From: Prevotella sp.
Lineage (GTDB): Bacteria > Bacteroidota > Bacteroidia > Bacteroidales > Bacteroidaceae
Assembly (NCBI GenBank): GCA_021204735.1
Contig: JAJPYV010000054.1
Span: forward strand, 1-12,203
DNA: 12,203 nucleotides
Direction: 5' to 3'
Notes under the pieces: model-generated
Seen by the model: the letters and a program-made list of their open reading frames with translations, nothing else
Database searches by the model: none
Told to the model about the DNA's origin: nothing
Shown here: positions 2,728 through 11,698 of the stretch, in pieces
How positions within the stretch are numbered: position 1 is the first letter of the stretch
How the letters are laid out: each line of letters opens with the position of its first letter
Position numbers and translations under genes: made by a program

Positions 2728-2757
2728 TTTCTATATGTGCGTTTTTTTGTATCTTTG
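2728..2757 (+). promoter_or_regulatory. Promoter of the five-gene helicase/PLD/Ycf46 operon
   Basis: A perfect Bacteroides -7 box TATCTTTG lies at 2750-2757, with a weaker -33 box TTTC at 2728-2731 (18-bp spacer). A start near 2764 leaves about 30 nt of leader before the ATG at 2794. The box lies inside the apparent N-terminal extension of the following reading frame (ATG at 2707), which argues that the extension is not translated. No other intergenic gap large enough for a promoter exists until 11698. Confidence 0.5.
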
Positions 2758-2793
2758 TGTTCACGATATGGCTATTCAAAAATATTATCAAAA

Positions 2794-3246
2794 ATGGACA
2801 GTTTTTTTATAAGACGTATTTTAGAAGGGAATAATTACCCTTCAGATGGACAAATAGTATTTGACTCTTCTGATCATATCCGTTTTCAAAATGGTAATGA
2901 TGTTTCTGGCCACAATTATGGATGTAATCGTCGACTTATAATCGAGAAAAATATTCAAGGTAACGAGGGCTATACAGTAATCATGTACAATCTTGATGGC
3001 ATTCATCCTATATGGCAAAATAATATTCAGATGGCTCCCAAACAGATGAAGATAGTGAATGTGAATGGTAACATAGTAGAATTGCGTGGCTATGGCTATG
3101 ATGAAAACGCATTGGCAATGGGTGCACCGTTGGAAGTTGCTTCGTTTGAAAATTATGGAGTTGTGCTCATGATTGAAGGCAGTGAGATTGTTCGAGCACA
3201 ACTTAATATGTTTGATAAAAATGTTAGTATAGTATATTTAAAGTAA
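2794..3246 (+). CDS. Small unrecognised protein, first gene of the operon
   Basis: The product is 150 residues from ATG 2794 (MDSFFIRRI). The frame is open back to an ATG at 2707, but that extension covers the promoter -7 box and reads as hydrophobic junk, so I prefer 2794. I recognise no domain. The sequence looks beta-rich and globular: alternating hydrophobic strands (GYTVIMYNL, MKIVNVNGNIVELRGYGY, YGVVLMIEGSEI), few charged helices, no membrane helix and no signal peptide. NLDGIHPIW and the GHNYGCNRR segment are its most distinctive stretches. It ends 5 nt before the helicase start and is surely co-transcribed. As the smallest, first-placed member it might be a sensor, regulator or adaptor of the system, but that is only a guess from position. 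Confidence 0.75.
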   Translation: MDSFFIRRILEGNNYPSDGQIVFDSSDHIRFQNGNDVSGHNYGCNRRLIIEKNIQGNEGYTVIMYNLDGIHPIWQNNIQMAPKQMKIVNVNGNIVELRGYGYDENALAMGAPLEVASFENYGVVLMIEGSEIVRAQLNMFDKNVSIVYLK

Positions 3247-3251
3247 CAATT

Positions 3252-6200
3252 ATGACTCCTTTTGAACGCTTTGAACAACCTGATGTTTACGTTGAGGATT
3301 CGAATGTCGTACCTATTATCATCAGATATAATGATTCCAATGAAGAATATCACAAAAAAAATAATGCGACATCTTTTAGAGATTCAATTCCTCTGTTTAA
3401 TGGTATCCATACATGCGTGTTTGTGAATGATGGAATGTCAAAAGGCAAAATTCCTCGTCAACAGTTTTTAATTATTCTTGAAGACGTAGGACGTAGTATT
3501 CGTGCACAAATTGACAATGGGAAGAGATCTTTCTTTGGCCCATCATTACTTACGGAAAGTGGCATTATTCCAAACGACGAAAACGAATATATAAGGTGTC
3601 GTTGCAATATTTGTATAGAAGATAATAGCATTGATGTTATTGACAAGGCTTGTGAACTTCACTGGGGAGATGGGCGATTGTCAGAGTTAAAATCTTTTGT
3701 ACAATCAGTTGCTGAACTCAAACAGCCATTAAAAGAGATTCGCAAAGAAGAAGATCAAAAGATTTGGGCGTCATACGCTGAAGGCCTTGAGGCATTGACA
3801 AAATCCAAGCAGGAACTCCGTAAGATTTCTCATATTGGGAAAATTCATCCAGAGAAAAATCATCGAAAGGAGAAGATTGATGTGATTGATCTTGAGATTG
3901 TCGCCATGACAAATGCCGAGGTGCTGAAATATAACATAGGAGATTTCGATGATCATCTTAGAAAGCCTCGCTTTGAGACTGATGAAGATGGCAAAGAATG
4001 TTCTTTAATATTTGACGGATATGTTGATGTTTCTGATGACGAGTTAAAAGAGTTAGAATCATCAGCCGAGCAATCCTGCTATAAAATGTCATCAATGTAT
4101 CCATCACACAAGTTACAAGGAGAATTTGTTTTTAAAACAAGTGATGCTGATAAAGAAGAAGTTATTTCTGAATTTGAATCTCTTCTTTCGGATTATGACA
4201 CAGAATATCCTCAGAAGTCTGACAATCTGTACACTTTCAAGTCTGATGAGGATGCAACTCATGCTAAAGATATTATTAGGGAGCGTTTTGAAAATGTATT
4301 AAAAGCCACATCTTCCACAAACATTTCAATTTCATTCATGGAAGAGGACCAAGTTGATCTTCTTCAAACTCTAAAGGATCAATTTGTAAACATAAATATT
4401 ATTCAACAAAATCAAAAACAGTTCTATGTTCTCCATGCAAAAGAACCTATTGATTGTTCTAAAATTGAGGATTATTCTTTAGTTTTTGACAGTTGTCGGG
4501 TTAAAATTATCGTCCCGAATTTCGATCCTGACATTCAAGTCCCCGCTGCTTTGTCAGCAAAAGACGGAGTATATTATGGTATTATACCTGACAAAACAAA
4601 AATAGACAAACAGCCAAGAGGTTGGGCTCATGCTATACCTAATGCGTATAAGAAGAAAGGAAAGAAAACGAAGTGTACTATAGTTGAGTATGTATATGCA
4701 TTCCGTCAGGCTGTGAATAAAAAAACGATGAAATCTTTAGCAAGATCTCTTGTAGGCGAATCTTGTTTGAGGATAAACACTGCTGTTGGTCGGGCAGACT
4801 GTTCACCGAACAATTCTTCTGAATACGAAACCATTAAAGAAAAGATTAGTGAAGTAATACCTGATAACATCAATGTCCTATTTCCAGAATATAAACCTTC
4901 ACTGACTGTATCTTTCTTGAGTGAAGATACTGATTACAAACAAAGTTGTATCGATCCCATAGAGAAGGCATTGCACGATTTATCATGCAAATGGACTATT
5001 AAAGATGACGCAATCTCATTTGAATTAAGTTTCGATGACGAAGAGTCAAGAGACAAAATCGTATCAAGAATGCGTCGTGTGGCCTCTGAGCATTCCCGCA
5101 TATTTGATTTGCGTATTGAAAAGCCGAATGGAACTACTGTTATCACATTCCATGAAGATGTCAATTTAAGAGAGCAGTATGAGAAAGATTTACAGGGTGA
5201 TTTTGGAAGACAGAACGTGAATCTTATACCGTCATCATATAAACTTATTTCTGAACAACTATCAGAGGCAAAAGATGAAGATGACCTGGATAAAATAAAA
5301 GAACTATCTAAAAAACAACGTGAACTAATTTATAATGCTGAAATGCTAGGCATTTGCATAAACAGAACTCGTAATTCTGTCAAAATAGAGGTGTGTAAGG
5401 AGTTCGCTGATAAATTAGATTCAAAAGAGATTTCGATAGGAGTTGGTGATTATATACAATTCCCATTGATAGGCGAGGCAATAAATATTGCAAGACAAAA
5501 AGATGCGATTGACAGAATTCTTAAACCTGGCAGTAAAAACAGGTATGGGAAAACAATATCATACGCAACAAACCCCAATTTATCAAACTTCTTATTCGAC
5601 CCAAGATACGCTGCGGAAACAGATTCGGATATAGAATCTGTGAAAGCTGAAGTGAAAGAACGAAAGATAGAGGACAATATGAATGAACGTCAGTGTGAAG
5701 CTGTTGCAAAAGCAATAGAAGCTAAAGATATGGCATTCATCCAGGGACCTCCGGGTACAGGTAAAACCACTGTAATTGCCGAGATAATATGGCAGGAAGT
5801 ATTTAGAAATCCGAATTGTAAGATATTGTTAACTTCTCAAACCAATACTGCAGTAGATAATGCATTGGAAAGGCTTCAAGGCAAAAGAGGCATTAGACCT
5901 ATTAGAATACCAAAAATGGATGGTGAGGAAAGAATGGTGCGTGAATGCAAAAGGTATCTTTTTTCTCAATTACAAAATTGGAGCAATAAACCGACCGAGG
6001 ATAATGTAGATAATGCTGTTAATCTTTGGATTGATACTATTCTCAACGAAATGGATTCTTCAGACAGATATGCAAAGGTAATTGCAAGGTGGAAAAAAGA
6101 CCTGACAGAGAAAGATGATTTCGTAAGAAAAACATTTACAGAATCTTACGAAAGAAATGTGAATCTTGTAGCTGCAACATGTAGTATTTGTGGTTCTAAG

Positions 6201-7166
6201 AACTTTAATACTATCTATTCGTCACTTTATGATAACAACGATATGGTGTTTGATGTGGTTATCATGGATGAGGCATCAAAGGCTACTCCTTTAGAGATGG
6301 CTATACCTATGGTATTAGGAAAGAAAATAATCTTAATTGGCGACCACAAACAGCTACCGCCAATGATTGATGGCGACGAGGTTAAAGAGGCCTTACGTAA
6401 GAATGGGAGAGGTGATTTAGTTGACAAGTTGGAAAATATTAAAGAGTCTCAATTTAAGCGGCTGTTTGAAGCATCTCAAAAATATCGAAAATCTTTAGTT
6501 TCAACTCTTGACACTCAATATCGTATGCACAAACAAATTATGAATTGCATTTCTCATTTTTATAAAGACGATATTGAGGGAGGATTGAAATGCGGTATAG
6601 AGGAAACCATGGATAGCGCAGACTGGAGCAATAGAGGAAGTAGATACCATGGACTTGAAAACTTGCCATTTATCAATCCAGACGTACACGCAATTTGGGT
6701 AGATGTCGACGGTAAAGAAGAAAAGATTGGGCACTCACCAATGAATAGGGCTGAATTGAAAGCCATTGAAAAAATCCTTAAAGTTCTCACAGCCTCAAAG
6801 GGGTATGAAGAATATCTATCTCATTGTACTCGTCCAGAAGATGAAGAGATTGGTATCATCACATTCTACGGTGCCCAAGTAAAAGAACTTCAAAAAATGA
6901 ACAAAGAAGGTAAATTGGGACCTGGCAAGTTCAAAATTGATGTCGTGGATAGTTTCCAAGGTATGGAAAGAAATATCGTCATTATCTCAACAGTTCGAAC
7001 CGACAGAATTGGATTTGCGAAAGCTATTGAACGAATAAATGTTGCTTTCTCCCGTGCCAAGAGATTATTGATTGTTGTTGGAGATAAAGATTTTTTTGCG
7101 AGAGATGTTAATTATAGAACTTCTATACAGGCGATGCAAGTAGTAGGTATAAATCAGTTGAGTTAA
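3252..7166 (+). CDS. Large SF1 helicase, Upf1/DNA2-like (COG1112-type), with long N-terminal region
   Basis: This 1304-residue protein has its helicase core at about 805-1295, with motifs in order: Walker A GPPGTGKT (832-839); motif Ia TSQTNTAVDNAL; Walker B DEAS (1006-1009); motif III GDHKQLPP (1030-1037); motif IV QYRMH (1089-1093); motif V VDSFQGMER (1232-1240); motif VI NVAFSRAK (1263-1270). This full set is that of Upf1/DNA2-like superfamily 1B enzymes, which translocate on RNA or single-stranded DNA using ATP, so it should be active. The first 830 residues match nothing I know. They contain at least three segments of 70-90 residues with a strand-helix-strand pattern (about 287-355, 357-425, 550-640), which may be repeated ferredoxin/RRM-like nucleic-acid-binding modules. 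A charged, probably coiled helical stretch lies at about 640-705. No kinase or nuclease domain is fused; the next gene supplies a PLD-like domain. Helicases of this class paired with PLD proteins occur in known defence systems (Mokosh is the closest I recall). Confidence 0.93.
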   Translation: MTPFERFEQPDVYVEDSNVVPIIIRYNDSNEEYHKKNNATSFRDSIPLFNGIHTCVFVNDGMSKGKIPRQQFLIILEDVGRSIRAQIDNGKRSFFGPSLLTESGIIPNDENEYIRCRCNICIEDNSIDVIDKACELHWGDGRLSELKSFVQSVAELKQPLKEIRKEEDQKIWASYAEGLEALTKSKQELRKISHIGKIHPEKNHRKEKIDVIDLEIVAMTNAEVLKYNIGDFDDHLRKPRFETDEDGKECSLIFDGYVDVSDDELKELESSAEQSCYKMSSMYPSHKLQGEFVFKTSDADKEEVISEFESLLSDYDTEYPQKSDNLYTFKSDEDATHAKDIIRERFENVLKATSSTNISISFMEEDQVDLLQTLKDQFVNINIIQQNQKQFYVLHAKEPIDCSKIEDYSLVFDSCRVKIIVPNFDPDIQVPAALSAKDGVYYGIIPDKTKIDKQPRGWAHAIPNAYKKKGKKTKCTIVEYVYAFRQAVNKKTMKSLARSLVGESCLRINTAVGRADCSPNNSSEYETIKEKISEVIPDNINVLFPEYKPSLTVSFLSEDTDYKQSCIDPIEKALHDLSCKWTIKDDAISFELSFDDEESRDKIVSRMRRVASEHSRIFDLRIEKPNGTTVITFHEDVNLREQYEKDLQGDFGRQNVNLIPSSYKLISEQLSEAKDEDDLDKIKELSKKQRELIYNAEMLGICINRTRNSVKIEVCKEFADKLDSKEISIGVGDYIQFPLIGEAINIARQKDAIDRILKPGSKNRYGKTISYATNPNLSNFLFDPRYAAETDSDIESVKAEVKERKIEDNMNERQCEAVAKAIEAKDMAFIQGPPGTGKTTVIAEIIWQEVFRNPNCKILLTSQTNTAVDNALERLQGKRGIRPIRIPKMDGEERMVRECKRYLFSQLQNWSNKPTEDNVDNAVNLWIDTILNEMDSSDRYAKVIARWKKDLTEKDDFVRKTFTESYERNVNLVAATCSICGSKNFNTIYSSLYDNNDMVFDVVIMDEASKATPLEMAIPMVLGKKIILIGDHKQLPPMIDGDEVKEALRKNGRGDLVDKLENIKESQFKRLFEASQKYRKSLVSTLDTQYRMHKQIMNCISHFYKDDIEGGLKCGIEETMDSADWSNRGSRYHGLENLPFINPDVHAIWVDVDGKEEKIGHSPMNRAELKAIEKILKVLTASKGYEEYLSHCTRPEDEEIGIITFYGAQVKELQKMNKEGKLGPGKFKIDVVDSFQGMERNIVIISTVRTDRIGFAKAIERINVAFSRAKRLLIVVGDKDFFARDVNYRTSIQAMQVVGINQLS

Positions 7167-7172
7167 ACAGTT

Positions 7173-9434
7173 ATGGCAAACAAAGATAATGTTATAGAAT
7201 CAACAGATGTTGAAACTTCTGTGGAATTAAGAATCGCAAAAGCGATTGCTTCCGTGAAAAGGACGTCAGAACGTGTAATAGGTATAACTGCAACAGATTA
7301 CACCTATTCTGCACTTTCCTACATGGCTACAACAGTCCGCCCAGAACCAATTACACCATTGGAAAGAGCAGTAGTAGGTATAATTGATATTGACAACAAT
7401 GCCTCATTAGAAGGAATTGGCAAGATATTAGGATTGGACATTGTTCATGATGTGGCTGAGTACACAATGTTACTTGAATCTATTGATAAGATGAAAGGGT
7501 ATGGTATGCTCGAAGGTGATGAGTCGTATTTTTCATTAACAGAAAAAGGGAAAGTTTTTGCCGCAGAAGGGGAACGACCTATTACGTATAACAAGTCATT
7601 CGAAATATCATACGACCCTAACCATCCAGAATATTTGTATTTATCAAACGATTTCTCATCCGCCAATCGGACTATAGAAAAATGCGATCCGCCTACTGAC
7701 GAGATGTCACTGCAAGAAATTAAGAATTTTGCAGAAGTACAAGCTCCTGAAGTACAAAATGCAAAAAACAGATATATTCTTCAGTCGGCTGTCATAAAGG
7801 AGGCAAATACAGTTACAGTTTGTGTTTACGTCTTCATTCTTCAGTCCATTCGTAATGAAGAAGATTTCAGGGTATTTGCATATGACGACACTCAAAACGC
7901 GATCCTTCCTCATTTCTCTGGATTAATTCAAAGTGACAAAGAATGGACTGTCCAGCTGCTTGATCAGTGCATTTCTAATTCACTGAAGTTGCCAAAAGAA
8001 GATGGTGGATGGACCATCGTACCTGCTAATCAGGAAAAGAACGAGGAACAAAAAGAGATAGAAGCAGAACTCGTACAACAAGAAGATAAAGAGTCCGAAG
8101 GCGGAGTCAATTGCAATGAACTTGAACGACTTCACAAAAAAGCTTTATATGACCAAGTTTCTTTTGAGCTTGAACTTGATAAGATCTTTAAACAAGATAA
8201 TCCAGATGAAGTTTGGTTGATTAGCCCATTTGTTAACCGGACCTTTTTAAACGTTCGTGTAAAACAATTTGAACCATTGCTCAAAGCAAACAAGAGAATA
8301 TTCATAGCTTACTCTGAGCCATACTATAATAAACCCACAATCTCACAAGAAGCTCATGATGATATAATGAAAGAGATAGAACGACTTTCCAAATTATATC
8401 CGAACTTCTACTGCGTAGAACTGCCACAATTCCATACCAAACAAGTATTAGAAGTAAAGAAGGGTCAGTGCGTGCTTTTTAATGGAAGTTTCAATGTTCT
8501 TTCATTCAATGTTCTTTCATCCAATAATGTAAGCATAAAGAAAAAAGTTAGTCGAGAAGAAATGGCGCTTGTTCATTATCAGATTGCAATATCCAAGCGT
8601 CAAGAATATATTGAAACATTTGCCAATATCTATGAGAATGAAATTCTTAATGATGTACGCAATAGCGAGCCTAAAAAAATAGCTAAAATCAAATGTGATA
8701 GGATAGATTACCTTCGTCAGATTTCTGAGAAAAAAGAGAATTTTGTCGATTTTTATACAGAATACGACGAGAAGACCCTTCAGGCAAAAAACTCTGTATG
8801 GTATGGTGAATGTGACTCATTGCATGAGAAAATAAACCAAGCAATTGGAAATGATTCAATCAACGTAAATGAATATAAAAATATAAAGGCGGCATATTCA
8901 TCCCTGATAAAAGATGCTGTTCTTCTGACTGTAAACTCCGATGTTGTAAGTAATCTTGAAGAAGCATATGCAGAATTGGATCGTCTCCGAAGCACAAAGG
9001 ATAATCAAAATAATAAACAATTTGTTGAAGTTCCACTTTCTGGATCAATTACAGATATGGCGAAAGAAATCATCAATAATGCAAAACTTGATGATGAAAA
9101 AAGTGTTACGAAATATGTCGCAGCCCTCAATTTCCTATATTCCAAGAGAGAGTTTAAGAACATTGACGAAGGGACTAAACATCTAAAAAAGTTGCTTTAT
9201 AACACGTCTGGATTCTCTTATGTTTCTGTTTTTGATTATAGAGAAAATATGTTTGGCACTAGATATGATGCGACCATAGGTATTGGAGGATATTCATTTA
9301 GACTCAATAGTATTTTACCTAAGACTATGGAGAAAAAAATAGAATCTCTTAAAAGACCAAGAGGTCGTATTTCGCTTCAGAATGTTAACAAAGATGATAT
9401 AGAGAAAACGCTTAGAAAAATCTTAAATAAATAA
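7173..9434 (+). CDS. Winged-helix plus phospholipase-D-like (HKD) protein, putative nuclease
   Basis: This 753-residue protein has an N-terminal region (about 58-136) that reads as a winged helix, with LERAVVGIIDIDNNASLEGI and a terminal SYFSLTEKGKVFA wing. An acidic linker follows at about 287-320. Then comes a PLD-like fold at about 343-475: a typical opening strand VWLISPFVNRTFL, the catalytic pair H421-x-K423 in QFHTKQVLEV, and the downstream G438-S439-x-N441. The aspartate of the classical HxKx4D is absent (V428; E427 is next to it). Only one HKD half-motif is seen, so activity would need a dimer, as in Nuc-type PLD nucleases. The C-terminal 270 residues are helical and unassigned. A 15-bp tandem duplication sits at the GSxN motif. 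It starts 6 nt after the helicase stop, so they are translationally linked. The likely role is cleavage of nucleic acid unwound by the helicase; a non-nucleolytic PLD role cannot be excluded. Confidence 0.8.
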   Translation: MANKDNVIESTDVETSVELRIAKAIASVKRTSERVIGITATDYTYSALSYMATTVRPEPITPLERAVVGIIDIDNNASLEGIGKILGLDIVHDVAEYTMLLESIDKMKGYGMLEGDESYFSLTEKGKVFAAEGERPITYNKSFEISYDPNHPEYLYLSNDFSSANRTIEKCDPPTDEMSLQEIKNFAEVQAPEVQNAKNRYILQSAVIKEANTVTVCVYVFILQSIRNEEDFRVFAYDDTQNAILPHFSGLIQSDKEWTVQLLDQCISNSLKLPKEDGGWTIVPANQEKNEEQKEIEAELVQQEDKESEGGVNCNELERLHKKALYDQVSFELELDKIFKQDNPDEVWLISPFVNRTFLNVRVKQFEPLLKANKRIFIAYSEPYYNKPTISQEAHDDIMKEIERLSKLYPNFYCVELPQFHTKQVLEVKKGQCVLFNGSFNVLSFNVLSSNNVSIKKKVSREEMALVHYQIAISKRQEYIETFANIYENEILNDVRNSEPKKIAKIKCDRIDYLRQISEKKENFVDFYTEYDEKTLQAKNSVWYGECDSLHEKINQAIGNDSINVNEYKNIKAAYSSLIKDAVLLTVNSDVVSNLEEAYAELDRLRSTKDNQNNKQFVEVPLSGSITDMAKEIINNAKLDDEKSVTKYVAALNFLYSKREFKNIDEGTKHLKKLLYNTSGFSYVSVFDYRENMFGTRYDATIGIGGYSFRLNSILPKTMEKKIESLKRPRGRISLQNVNKDDIEKTLRKILNK
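8490..8519 (+). repeat. 15-bp perfect tandem duplication within the PLD motif
   Basis: Two perfect adjacent copies of TTCAATGTTCTTTCA (8490-8504 and 8505-8519) encode FNVLS twice, giving GSFNVLSFNVLSSN. The duplication keeps the frame and directly follows the G-S of the PLD GSxN motif, where family members normally have one such stretch. It is probably a recent slippage event and reversible by copy-number change. Confidence 0.9.
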
Positions 9435-9437
9435 TTT

Positions 9438-10073
9438 ATGTCTCGTTTTGAATCTTCTCGTTTTGCTCGTAATAGCAATGTAATGAATGCTGAGGTGCTA
9501 AAGACAGCGTGTGATTCTTTAGGGTGGAAATACTGTTTGAACAATAACATTCTTACAGTATCTGATGCAAACCAAAAACAAAACATGTATGGTGAATATA
9601 TCCTTCAAGTTGATCTCACAACAAATAAGGTGAGCTACAACACCTATTATACTCCTGATGCACCCCTAAAAGTCGAAGAACTTCAAAATACATTTTATAA
9701 GCTTAATGCTGAATATGCAAGGAAATCTTTAATTCAATCATTTAAAAGAAAAGGGTTCACATATCTGTCTAATGACAAATTCCAACCTACAGAGGAAGAA
9801 GTGTATTCATTCTTTATGGTTGGTAGGTCTGTAGATAAGACAGAAGACGAACCTATTGCACAAATTAAGTTTATTATCCTAAAAGATGGTACTATAGTTA
9901 CCGACTCGGATTATTTACCAAACGATGTTAATGAAAAGGCACATGCAGCCATGGACGAGTTGGAAACACTTTTAGGGAATAAACGAGTAATGACCAAAAA
10001 GGAAATACCATCAAAGTACCTATACAAAATGAAGCCTCGCAGGGTTAATATTATAGAACAGAATAGAAAATAG
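9438..10073 (+). CDS. DUF1257 (Ycf35-like) - DUF2997 fusion protein
   Basis: This 211-residue protein has two parts. Residues 1-130 resemble Ycf35/DUF1257: it starts MSRF (family MSHF), then NAEVLKTACDSLGW, a beta region, and YARKSLIQSFKRKGFTY, which parallels the family's RYAYNTVVSEAxKQGF segment. Residues about 140-200 resemble DUF2997: IKFIILKDGTIV with D150-G151, a helix AHAAMDELETLLG, and a basic tail with KKEIPSKYLYK, parallel to the family's RFxIxxDGxV ... AIExxLG ... EYY pattern. In cyanobacteria and other bacteria these are separate adjacent genes beside the Ycf46 AAA+ gene; here they are one polypeptide, followed after 5 nt by Ycf46. It probably binds or regulates that ATPase. Biochemical function is unknown for both families. 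The assignment rests on recalled motifs plus the highly specific neighbourhood. Confidence 0.75.
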   Translation: MSRFESSRFARNSNVMNAEVLKTACDSLGWKYCLNNNILTVSDANQKQNMYGEYILQVDLTTNKVSYNTYYTPDAPLKVEELQNTFYKLNAEYARKSLIQSFKRKGFTYLSNDKFQPTEEEVYSFFMVGRSVDKTEDEPIAQIKFIILKDGTIVTDSDYLPNDVNEKAHAAMDELETLLGNKRVMTKKEIPSKYLYKMKPRRVNIIEQNRK

Positions 10074-10078
10074 AAGCG

Positions 10079-11698
10079 ATGGAAGAAATCTTTAAAAAAA
10101 TAGAAGCATTACTGAATGCTTTTTACCCAGTACTTTATCTAACGAGTTTTGAGTATGAACGAACAAAACAAAAAGTTAGAACTGCCGTGGGGAATGTTGC
10201 CCCCAAAAACAACCATATATATGAGTGGAATTGTGTAGATGGGCTTTTCCTAATTCAAAAAAACTCACGGAATCAGGTTGAGAACATGGAAGAACCTGAA
10301 GAGGTGCTAAAATATATTTTATCAGCAACTGATCGTTCTTATAAAGATGTTTTCTTGTTAGAAGATTTTAACAACTATATAGAAGAACCAAGAATTAAGC
10401 ATCTTTTAAGAATAATTGCAGATAAGGCAAGATTTACAAACACTCATGTGATCATTGTGTCTGCTACATATAAATTGCCTACTGAGCTTGAAAAGTATGT
10501 AACGGCCTTGAATATTCCTTTACCTAGTCGTTATGATTTGGATAAAACATTACAACAAGTTGAAAAGGATATAAAGTTATCATTATCTGCAGAGCAAAGG
10601 AATAAATTGATAGATGCTGCACTAGGTATGACTTCTATGGAGGCGGATTTAGCATTCTGTCTTGCTGCTGTTAAGGATAATCTGGGGAAGAACTCGCCAT
10701 ATATCGTATCATCAGAGAAAGAGCAAATAATTCGCAAGTCGGGCATTCTTGATTATTTTCCCAAGAATGAAAATTTGAAAGATGTTGGAGGTATGGAAGT
10801 CCTTAAAGACTGGCTTTTTAAAAGACAGAAAGCGTATGAGAAGAAAGCAAGAGACTTTGGTTTGCAAGAACCGAAAGGATTGCTTTTGCTCGGTGTTCCA
10901 GGTTGTGGTAAAAGTCTGACAGCAAAATCAATTGCTTCGTTTTGGAATATGCCTTTGCTAAGGCTTGACATTGGCAAGGTTTTCCAAGGATTTGTAGGAA
11001 GTAGCGAAGACAATATTCGAAAAGCAATTGCGACGGCCGAAGCTGTTGCACCATGCGTGTTGTGGATTGATGAGATTGAAAAAGGTTTGAGTGGAGTGCA
11101 ATCAAGTGGAGCAACTGATGGGGGTGTAACTTCAAGAATTTTCTCGACAATTCTTACATGGATGCAAGAGAAAACATCTCCAGTGTTTGTTGTTGCTACG
11201 GCAAACAATATCAATCTTCTTCCGCCTGAACTTCTCCGTAAAGGAAGATTTGATGAGATTTTCTTTGTTGATCTTCCCAACGAAGAGGAACGCAAGAAAA
11301 TTTTTGAAATCCATCTTGTGAAAAAGAATCAGAATCCACAATCTTTCCCAATGGAGTTGCTTAGTAAGAAAACAGAAGGATTCAATGGAGCAGAAATTGA
11401 AGAATGCATTAAAGAAGCGATGTTTGCAGCGTATGTTGATAATCCTGAAATACCGGTTTTGAAATCTTGTCATTTGGTAAATGCTATAAACAAAACTGTA
11501 CCATTATCAATAACGATGAAAGAACAAATATCTGCATTACGCCTGTGGGCTTCAACTCGTGCTAAGAATGCTTCGGTTGAACTCCAAATCGAAAACCGAA
11601 AAGAGAGGACTATTTTATTAACTATGCCAGAATTAGATGTGGAACGATCATTTAATATAAATAAAATGTCCAATAGTAATGAACGACACGCTGATTAA
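10079..11698 (+). CDS. Ycf46-type AAA+ ATPase
   Basis: This 539-residue protein, slightly longer than typical Ycf46 (about 490-530), matches the family along its length. The N-terminal domain (1-200) is a degenerate RecA-like fold beginning IEALLNAFYPVLYLTSFEYE and containing VFLLEDFNNYI, with no Walker A of its own. A linker carrying EKEQIIRKSGILDYFP and the DVGG sequence leads to the active AAA+ module: Walker A GVPGCGKS (272-279), Walker B LWIDE (D331-E332), sensor 1 N376 in ATANNINLLP, and the conserved RKGRFDE (387-393) with a candidate arginine finger. A helical lid (EGFNGAEIEECIKEAMFAA) follows. Ycf46 is poorly understood; in cyanobacteria it has been linked to CO2 uptake and photosynthesis regulation, which cannot apply here. 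It likely forms a hexamer that remodels a protein partner, with the DUF1257-DUF2997 protein as co-factor. It is the last gene of the operon. Confidence 0.95.
   Translation: MEEIFKKIEALLNAFYPVLYLTSFEYERTKQKVRTAVGNVAPKNNHIYEWNCVDGLFLIQKNSRNQVENMEEPEEVLKYILSATDRSYKDVFLLEDFNNYIEEPRIKHLLRIIADKARFTNTHVIIVSATYKLPTELEKYVTALNIPLPSRYDLDKTLQQVEKDIKLSLSAEQRNKLIDAALGMTSMEADLAFCLAAVKDNLGKNSPYIVSSEKEQIIRKSGILDYFPKNENLKDVGGMEVLKDWLFKRQKAYEKKARDFGLQEPKGLLLLGVPGCGKSLTAKSIASFWNMPLLRLDIGKVFQGFVGSSEDNIRKAIATAEAVAPCVLWIDEIEKGLSGVQSSGATDGGVTSRIFSTILTWMQEKTSPVFVVATANNINLLPPELLRKGRFDEIFFVDLPNEEERKKIFEIHLVKKNQNPQSFPMELLSKKTEGFNGAEIEECIKEAMFAAYVDNPEIPVLKSCHLVNAINKTVPLSITMKEQISALRLWASTRAKNASVELQIENRKERTILLTMPELDVERSFNINKMSNSNERHAD

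Follow-up and report, generated by a model that had tools for sequence, protein, structure and literature searches.

The window, that is, the whole stretch of 12,203 nucleotides analysed here, is one entire contig (JAJPYV010000054.1) of a draft Prevotella genome (2.74 Mb, 81% complete) and carries a cassette of five genes in which a UPF1-like helicase and a winged-helix nuclease stand next to an AAA+ ATPase of the Ycf46 type. We propose, at a probability of roughly 0.6, that it is a mobile anti-invader cassette which most likely destroys RNA, the helicase and nuclease being under the control of the AAA+ module. The genes and domains are as follows:

2794..3246, plus strand: gene 1, 150 aa, predicted to form a beta-barrel, not present in every cassette (10-sequence alignment; AlphaFold2; tblastn presence/absence)
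3252..7166, plus strand: gene 2, 1304-aa UPF1-like superfamily 1 (SF1) helicase with a long N-terminal region
5664..7121, plus strand: helicase core of gene 2, with Walker A GPPGTGKT and DEAS (Pfam AAA_11/AAA_12)
7173..9434, plus strand: gene 3, 753-aa winged-helix and PLD-nuclease protein, weakly MkoB-like
7344..7571, plus strand: MarR-like winged helix of gene 3, aa 58-133
8124..8642, plus strand: PLD nuclease domain of gene 3, aa 318-490, with HxK at 8433-8441 and GSFN at 8484-8495
9438..10073, plus strand: gene 4, 211 aa, DUF1257-like N-terminal half (about 9474-9767) fused to a DUF2997-like C-terminal half (about 9855-10022); the likeness is weak and collinear
10079..11698, plus strand: gene 5, 539-aa Ycf46-type AAA+ ATPase, AAA core at about 10880-11272

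In the open reading frame (ORF) list of the window adjacent genes of the five are separated by 5, 6, 3, and 5 nucleotides, in agreement with an earlier note on this DNA that had described five co-directional genes with gaps of 3–6 nucleotides. The note had also called the locus AT-rich, and indeed the GC fraction is 0.33–0.38 across the cassette versus 0.43–0.44 at positions 1–1500.

The genes occur together in other genomes as well. A scan with gene 4 alone through the contigs of 84,980 species gave 107 pattern matches and 23 loci that encode a relative (loci are numbered L and genomes G below); four of these loci (L019, L034, L038, and L039) had already been found through gene 3. Genes 3, 4, and 5 stand together in all 23, with gene 5 truncated where the contig stops in L030 and L035, and gene 2 is present in 21, the contigs of L026 and L035 ending at gene 3. 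From gene 2 to gene 5 the order and strand are invariant across the 23 loci, and intergenic spacings lie between −35 and +15 nucleotides in the 18 loci measured. Wherever the contig extends far enough, no gene 4 lacking the helicase-nuclease pair was seen.

The cassette is a rare, mobile set in a minority of gut bacteria and their relatives. A gene 4 profile matched 3 of 395 genomes of the phylum (that of the window, G645, and G653, both of the latter with genes 2 to 5 complete), and a profile of the PLD-type gene 3 matched 4 of 390 (the same three, and G433, where the match is confined to the PLD part). Within the order, gene 3 was found in 6 of 393 genomes, namely that of the window, four in which genes 4 and 5 adjoin it, and G113 (locus L015). 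Housekeeping status, which the earlier note had weighed, is not what is seen: none of 59 other relatives, of which 35 belong to the same genus, has gene 3. Near-identical copies lie in different hosts. For example, L021 and L022 are 93.8% identical over 9.6 kb (3082 to 12669, plus one side match of 262 nucleotides) and L027 and L040 are 94.8% identical over 9.0 kb (3253 to 12223), both matches ending about at the cassette borders. L024 and L025 (from Bacteroides and Phocaeicola) match at about 96.4% over 16.5 kb and L021 and L023 at about 96.4% over 15 kb, flanks included; therefore, larger blocks are shared there. Two loci, L032 (binned as Alphaproteobacteria) and L026 (binned as Lachnoclostridium), are likely mis-binned. 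Defence genes lie next to the cassette in several loci: of nine chosen neighbour genes, eight match a PADLOC family at E ≤ 1e-5 and five exceed 100 bits (YhcG/PDC-S02, DndD/PbeC, SspB, a type IIG restriction-modification enzyme, and RmrA). As a separate observation, an HKD and Snf2 protein (PADLOC C3a139, 406 bits) is encoded downstream of the helicase-PLD pair of L015, at 4974-8273 on the minus strand.

Gene 2 is a UPF1/SMUBP2-type SF1 helicase, as had been supposed. All 19 gene 2 proteins checked keep both GPPGTGKT and DEAS, and the MkoA profile of the Mokosh defence system matches 17 of 17 helicases compared. The window's protein matches MkoA at 390 bits in the helicase half only (profile positions 538-1088 of 1112). 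No NERD domain is among the 25 families that match gene 2 at E ≤ 1 or among the matches of genes 1, 3, 4, and 5, and the family scan found no kinase domain in gene 2. Among the closest solved structures are DNA2 and SMUBP-2, with UPF1 and SEN1 nearly as close.

Gene 3 is the variable part of the cassette, in which a common N-terminal region is followed by either a PLD nuclease, as in the window, or a PIN domain. Pfam fails to detect the PLD domain of the window's protein, which is identified by structure prediction and by the invariant residues H421, K423, G438, S439, and N441; high-ranking fold matches include the DNA restriction enzymes SauUSI and NgoAVII. Twenty-two gene 3 proteins were compared, the near-copies L022, L023, and L025 and the incomplete L026 and L030 being left out. 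The HxK...GSxN motif is present in 13, and the remaining nine (8 of 20 in one scan, plus L049) have a PIN_4 domain and no PLD motif. PIN_4 domains are mostly ribonucleases. Two of the 20 proteins scanned, both of PIN type, add an OST-HTH domain, which is predicted to bind RNA in the available text of PMC2848206. The nuclease types are also separated in the tree of gene 5 (support 100/100, 20 rows) and, weakly, in that of gene 4 (66/63, 21 rows). At E ≤ 1, MkoB matches 11 of the 20 gene 3 sequences compared (lowest E 2.6e-13), partially in those examined.

Gene 5 encodes an AAA+ ATPase that is of the Ycf46 type over its full length, 36–46% identical to six plasmid proteins that we take to be Ycf46 (AAA family ATPase in the database records). 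Annotated genes for both DUF1257 and DUF2997 are close to four of the six, DUF2997 by itself is close to one, and the last has neither nearby. The AAA+ core is closest in the PDB to CDC48/VCP, then to NVL and AFG2. As for the separate DUF1257 and DUF2997 genes proposed earlier, the collinear resemblance stands, but it lies in two halves of the single gene 4 and is weak. By hhalign, DUF1257 is matched at E 7e-4 (probability 27%) and DUF2997 at E 1.2e-3 (probability 19%). The Pfam score for DUF1257, 13.4 bits, does not reach the cut-off of 22.2, and DUF1257 is matched by 5 of 19 gene 4 members at E ≤ 0.1, a level at which several unrelated families score equally well. In the available text of PMC4284462, DUF2997 and DUF1257 are described within a ferredoxin gene cluster. 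On a Treponema succinifaciens plasmid (L053, 8082-9506), a Ycf46-like AAA+ gene lies in a cluster resembling a contractile injection system, after a 4Fe-4S protein gene. The cassette resembles the Ycf46/DUF1257(Ycf35)/DUF2997 module, known from cyanobacteria, plastids, and plasmids, in its full-length Ycf46 homologue and, as far as the weak gene 4 matches go, in the order DUF1257 then DUF2997, and differs from it in that the DUFs are fused and highly diverged, no 4Fe-4S partner is among the five genes, and the module is tied to a helicase-nuclease.

CoCoNuT is among the closest described systems. In CoCoNuTs, according to the available text of PMC11090510, the usual neighbour downstream of a UPF1-like helicase is a winged helix joined to one of various nucleases, beside a McrB GTPase. 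Types II and III (CnuH-CnuE with CnuB/CnuC, that is, McrBC) share with the cassette a helicase followed by a winged-helix protein with an exchangeable nuclease (HEPN and PLD there) and an adjoining AAA+ NTPase, and the same text predicts an RNA target for them; this likeness is one of domain plan. In contrast to CoCoNuT, the AAA+ protein here is of the Ycf46/CDC48 type, none of the five genes matches the McrB or McrC families, genes 1 and 4 are extra, and the sister clade uses PIN. Type I Mokosh (MkoA-MkoB) is similar in that the helicase half of gene 2 matches MkoA and 11 of 20 gene 3 proteins match MkoB; it differs in the NERD domain, which PMC10952713 lists for it in the part available, and kinase domain that gene 2 lacks, and in the extra genes 1, 4, and 5 and the PIN variant of the cassette. 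Mokosh degrades viral transcripts and has domain homology to the piRNA pathway, as the available part of PMC11291487 states. No system joining both modules was found in the open-licence PMC literature, among the matches listed, and genes 1 and 4 match no model of PADLOC-DB 2.0.0 (2023) at E ≤ 1. The pair of helicase and winged-helix nuclease is an already recognised theme, and therefore the novelty is narrower than the earlier note claimed.

Defence, which the earlier note had also proposed, is supported by the neighbours, the mobility, and the homology to MkoA and MkoB. Because the domain plan is that of CoCoNuT with a Ycf46 engine, and because Mokosh is described as degrading viral transcripts, we favour destruction of RNA by a helicase-nuclease under AAA+ control. 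The UPF1-like helicase would load onto foreign nucleic acid and pass it to the nuclease (PLD here, PIN in the sister clade), which would be tethered by the winged-helix protein of gene 3. The AAA+ protein of gene 5, with gene 4 as a putative adaptor, may remodel or license the helicase-nuclease complex, and would occupy the place that the McrBC GTPase module has in CoCoNuT. The make-up and order of the genes, the catalytic motifs, the swap of nucleases, the mobility, the defence genes beside several loci, and the linked RNA described next are observed; a role in defence, RNA as the substrate, gating by the AAA+ protein, and any function of gene 1 or of the RNA are inferences.

In one subclade the cassette is linked to an RNA. 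A full-length match to 5S ribosomal RNA (rRNA; RF00001, 1-120) begins 1–22 nucleotides after the gene 5 stop codon in 7 of the 14 loci scanned with Rfam (L020-L025 and L040); no 16S or 23S rRNA reaches gathering score within these 14 loci. Copies lying directly after gene 5 include:

L020, 12264-12395: 5S-like RNA
L021, 12281-12412: 5S-like RNA
L024, 12269-12399: 5S-like RNA
L040, 12255-12386: 5S-like RNA
L097, 915-1046: 5S-like RNA
L098, 11596-11726, minus strand: 5S-like RNA

These are distinct from the ribosomal 5S of the same genomes. Among ten genomes searched, cassette copies score 46.5–65.8 bits versus 78.8–84.4 for full-length copies elsewhere (six genomes); four partial matches lie outside the cassette (35.7–62.5 bits), and two genomes, that of the window and G824, have no 5S match. 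Whatever the host, cassette copies are 82–98% identical to each other versus 57–68% to five authentic copies. The stretches that we take to be helix III/loop C and loop E are nearly identical to host 5S, whereas helices I-II are changed and a private, conserved 3' tail is added. A covariance model scores L020-L026 and L040 at 154–165 bits and authentic 5S at 73–81 bits, and gives no match in the window, in L019 and L027, or in the remaining cassettes searched. When 389 genomes of the window's family were searched for the tail by itself, six matched, all without mismatch (a backward control pattern matched two genomes); four are L021, L022, L025, and L040 by coordinates, and two are new, with gene 5 directly upstream in both (cut short in G948). 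In the covariation analysis 98% of cells are paired and eight are double changes (0 of 500 shuffles), in few lineages and with other measures within the shuffle range. The RNA may be a further component of the system in this subclade, possibly a bait, decoy, or scaffold. It is a tentative idea, and a rather doubtful one, that the system is an immune ribonucleoprotein mimicking the ribosome: the cassettes of L020-L026, L040, L097, and L098 would encode their own 5S mimic, which the helicase, the nuclease, and the Ycf46-type unfoldase would use in this way to monitor ribosomes or RNA while the cell is infected, and the system of the window would do likewise without the RNA. Independently of the cassette, the Bacteroides phage LoVEphage carries a complete 5S match (3980-4090 in L099, OY731433.1, and L100, MW660583.1; 76.4 bits), 82% identical to authentic B. 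finegoldii 5S, with a gene for an RtcB-type tRNA-splicing ligase about 3 kb away; it could possibly serve in RNA repair or as a decoy.

Several observations weigh against RNA destruction under AAA+ control as a reading of the cassette. L015 carries the helicase-PLD pair without genes 4 and 5, and in the helicase tree (19 rows) it groups with the window's PLD group at 100/100, though on a long branch; because the pair stands alone there, inside the PLD group, it may be able to do without the AAA+ module. The window's gene 3 matches MkoB weakly (13.7 bits, E 0.0067), the 5S-like RNA is missing from the window, and the neighbour genes were picked by hand for their defence-like look and are a selected sample, not a census. 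PLD nucleases, whose high-ranking folds here include the DNA restriction enzymes SauUSI and NgoAVII, and helicases of the UPF1/SMUBP2/DNA2 type can also act on DNA.

This last point leads to a restriction-like system in which a DNA2/SMUBP2-like helicase translocates along invading DNA, the PLD domain cuts as in SauUSI or NgoAVII, and the AAA+ protein is a regulator. The restriction nucleases among the PLD folds, DNA2 and SMUBP-2 among the closest helicases, and DNA restriction systems among the neighbours all fit it, but UPF1 and SEN1 are nearly as close, and the sister clade has PIN_4, in two members with OST-HTH (PMC2848206, as above). We regard it as a somewhat unlikely account.

It is unlikely, too, that the cassette is an abortive-infection or toxin-antitoxin-like unit in which the gene 3 nuclease is a toxin restrained until infection by the other proteins and, where present, the 5S-like RNA. 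An exchangeable nuclease on a conserved chassis, a small optional gene 1, and an RNA at the 3' end would suit such a unit; however, the RNA and gene 1 are each missing from several loci, and two ATP-driven motors within a large multi-protein set are unusual for toxin-antitoxin pairs. Quality control of host RNA or ribosomes, with the helicase, an RNase, a CDC48/AFG2-like AAA+ protein, and a 5S mimic working on stalled ribosomes, would explain the kinship to CDC48/VCP, NVL, and AFG2 and to SMUBP-2, SEN1, and UPF1, as well as the 5S mimic of one subclade. Its improbability follows from the rare and patchy distribution (gene 3 is missing from all 59 relatives examined apart from the window, and gene 4, the window's copy included, is known from 3 of 395 genomes of the phylum), the near-identical copies across genera, and the defence neighbours. 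That a Mokosh-like pair and a Ycf46 module are merely neighbours in an island, as the lone pair of L015 and the Ycf46/DUF1257/DUF2997 sets on plasmids with no such pair annotated alongside might suggest, is hardly credible given the identical order in 23 of 23 loci, the near-zero spacing in 18, and a gene 4 that never stands without the pair where the contig reaches.

Gene 1 is predicted to be a beta-barrel protein (predicted local distance difference test, pLDDT, 87) with no firm relative. Its start had been placed at 2728; because relatives begin at 2794 and a −7-type promoter box lies within the longer ORF, we place it at 2794. It is found in 12 loci, the window included, and absent from nine with more than 1 kb upstream of gene 2 (L029, L030, L031, L036, L037, L039, L041, L049, and L050). 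It crosses the PLD/PIN divide, the window's copy being 84% identical to that of the PIN-type L032, with the DNA match stopping at the gene 1 stop codon. Gene 1 is an optional accessory, perhaps with a regulatory role; the sensor function suggested in the earlier note is hypothetical. Distant relatives occur outside the cassette in L052 (6988-7428, a TerB-domain gene coming next) and L051 (9851-10261, minus strand).

The promoter box and the recognised flanking genes are:

2750..2757, plus strand: promoter-like TATCTTTG of the Bacteroidota −7 box type, inside the longer gene 1 ORF and 5' of the revised start
473-1201, left of the cassette: Nudix and winged-helix regulator of the NrtR/AraR type, intact ORF
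2021-2662: zinc-ribbon/Sel1 protein

The Bacteroidota −7 box has the consensus TAnnTTTG. A promoter-like sequence before gene 1 had been noted and such a box is there, but boxes of this type are no commoner in the window than in shuffled sequence; by eye, L021, L024, L032, and L033 have one ahead of gene 1 too (5 of 9 upstream regions, the window counted). The other flanking ORFs are short, one with a sub-threshold RhuM match, and the transposase reported there was not recognised among the flanking ORFs scanned. Neither a tRNA nor, at gathering score, any Rfam family was found in the window.

If this reading is true, the 5S-like RNA, should it really belong to the system, would represent a type of immune RNA not found in the open-licence PMC literature among the matches listed. 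The theme of UPF1 helicase and winged-helix nuclease would then also include another kind of AAA+ engine as well as PIN and OST-HTH domains, components that occur likewise in the RNA decay and piRNA pathways of eukaryotes. The orphan trio Ycf46/DUF1257/DUF2997 of plastids and cyanobacteria would gain a candidate molecular partner, a helicase-nuclease.

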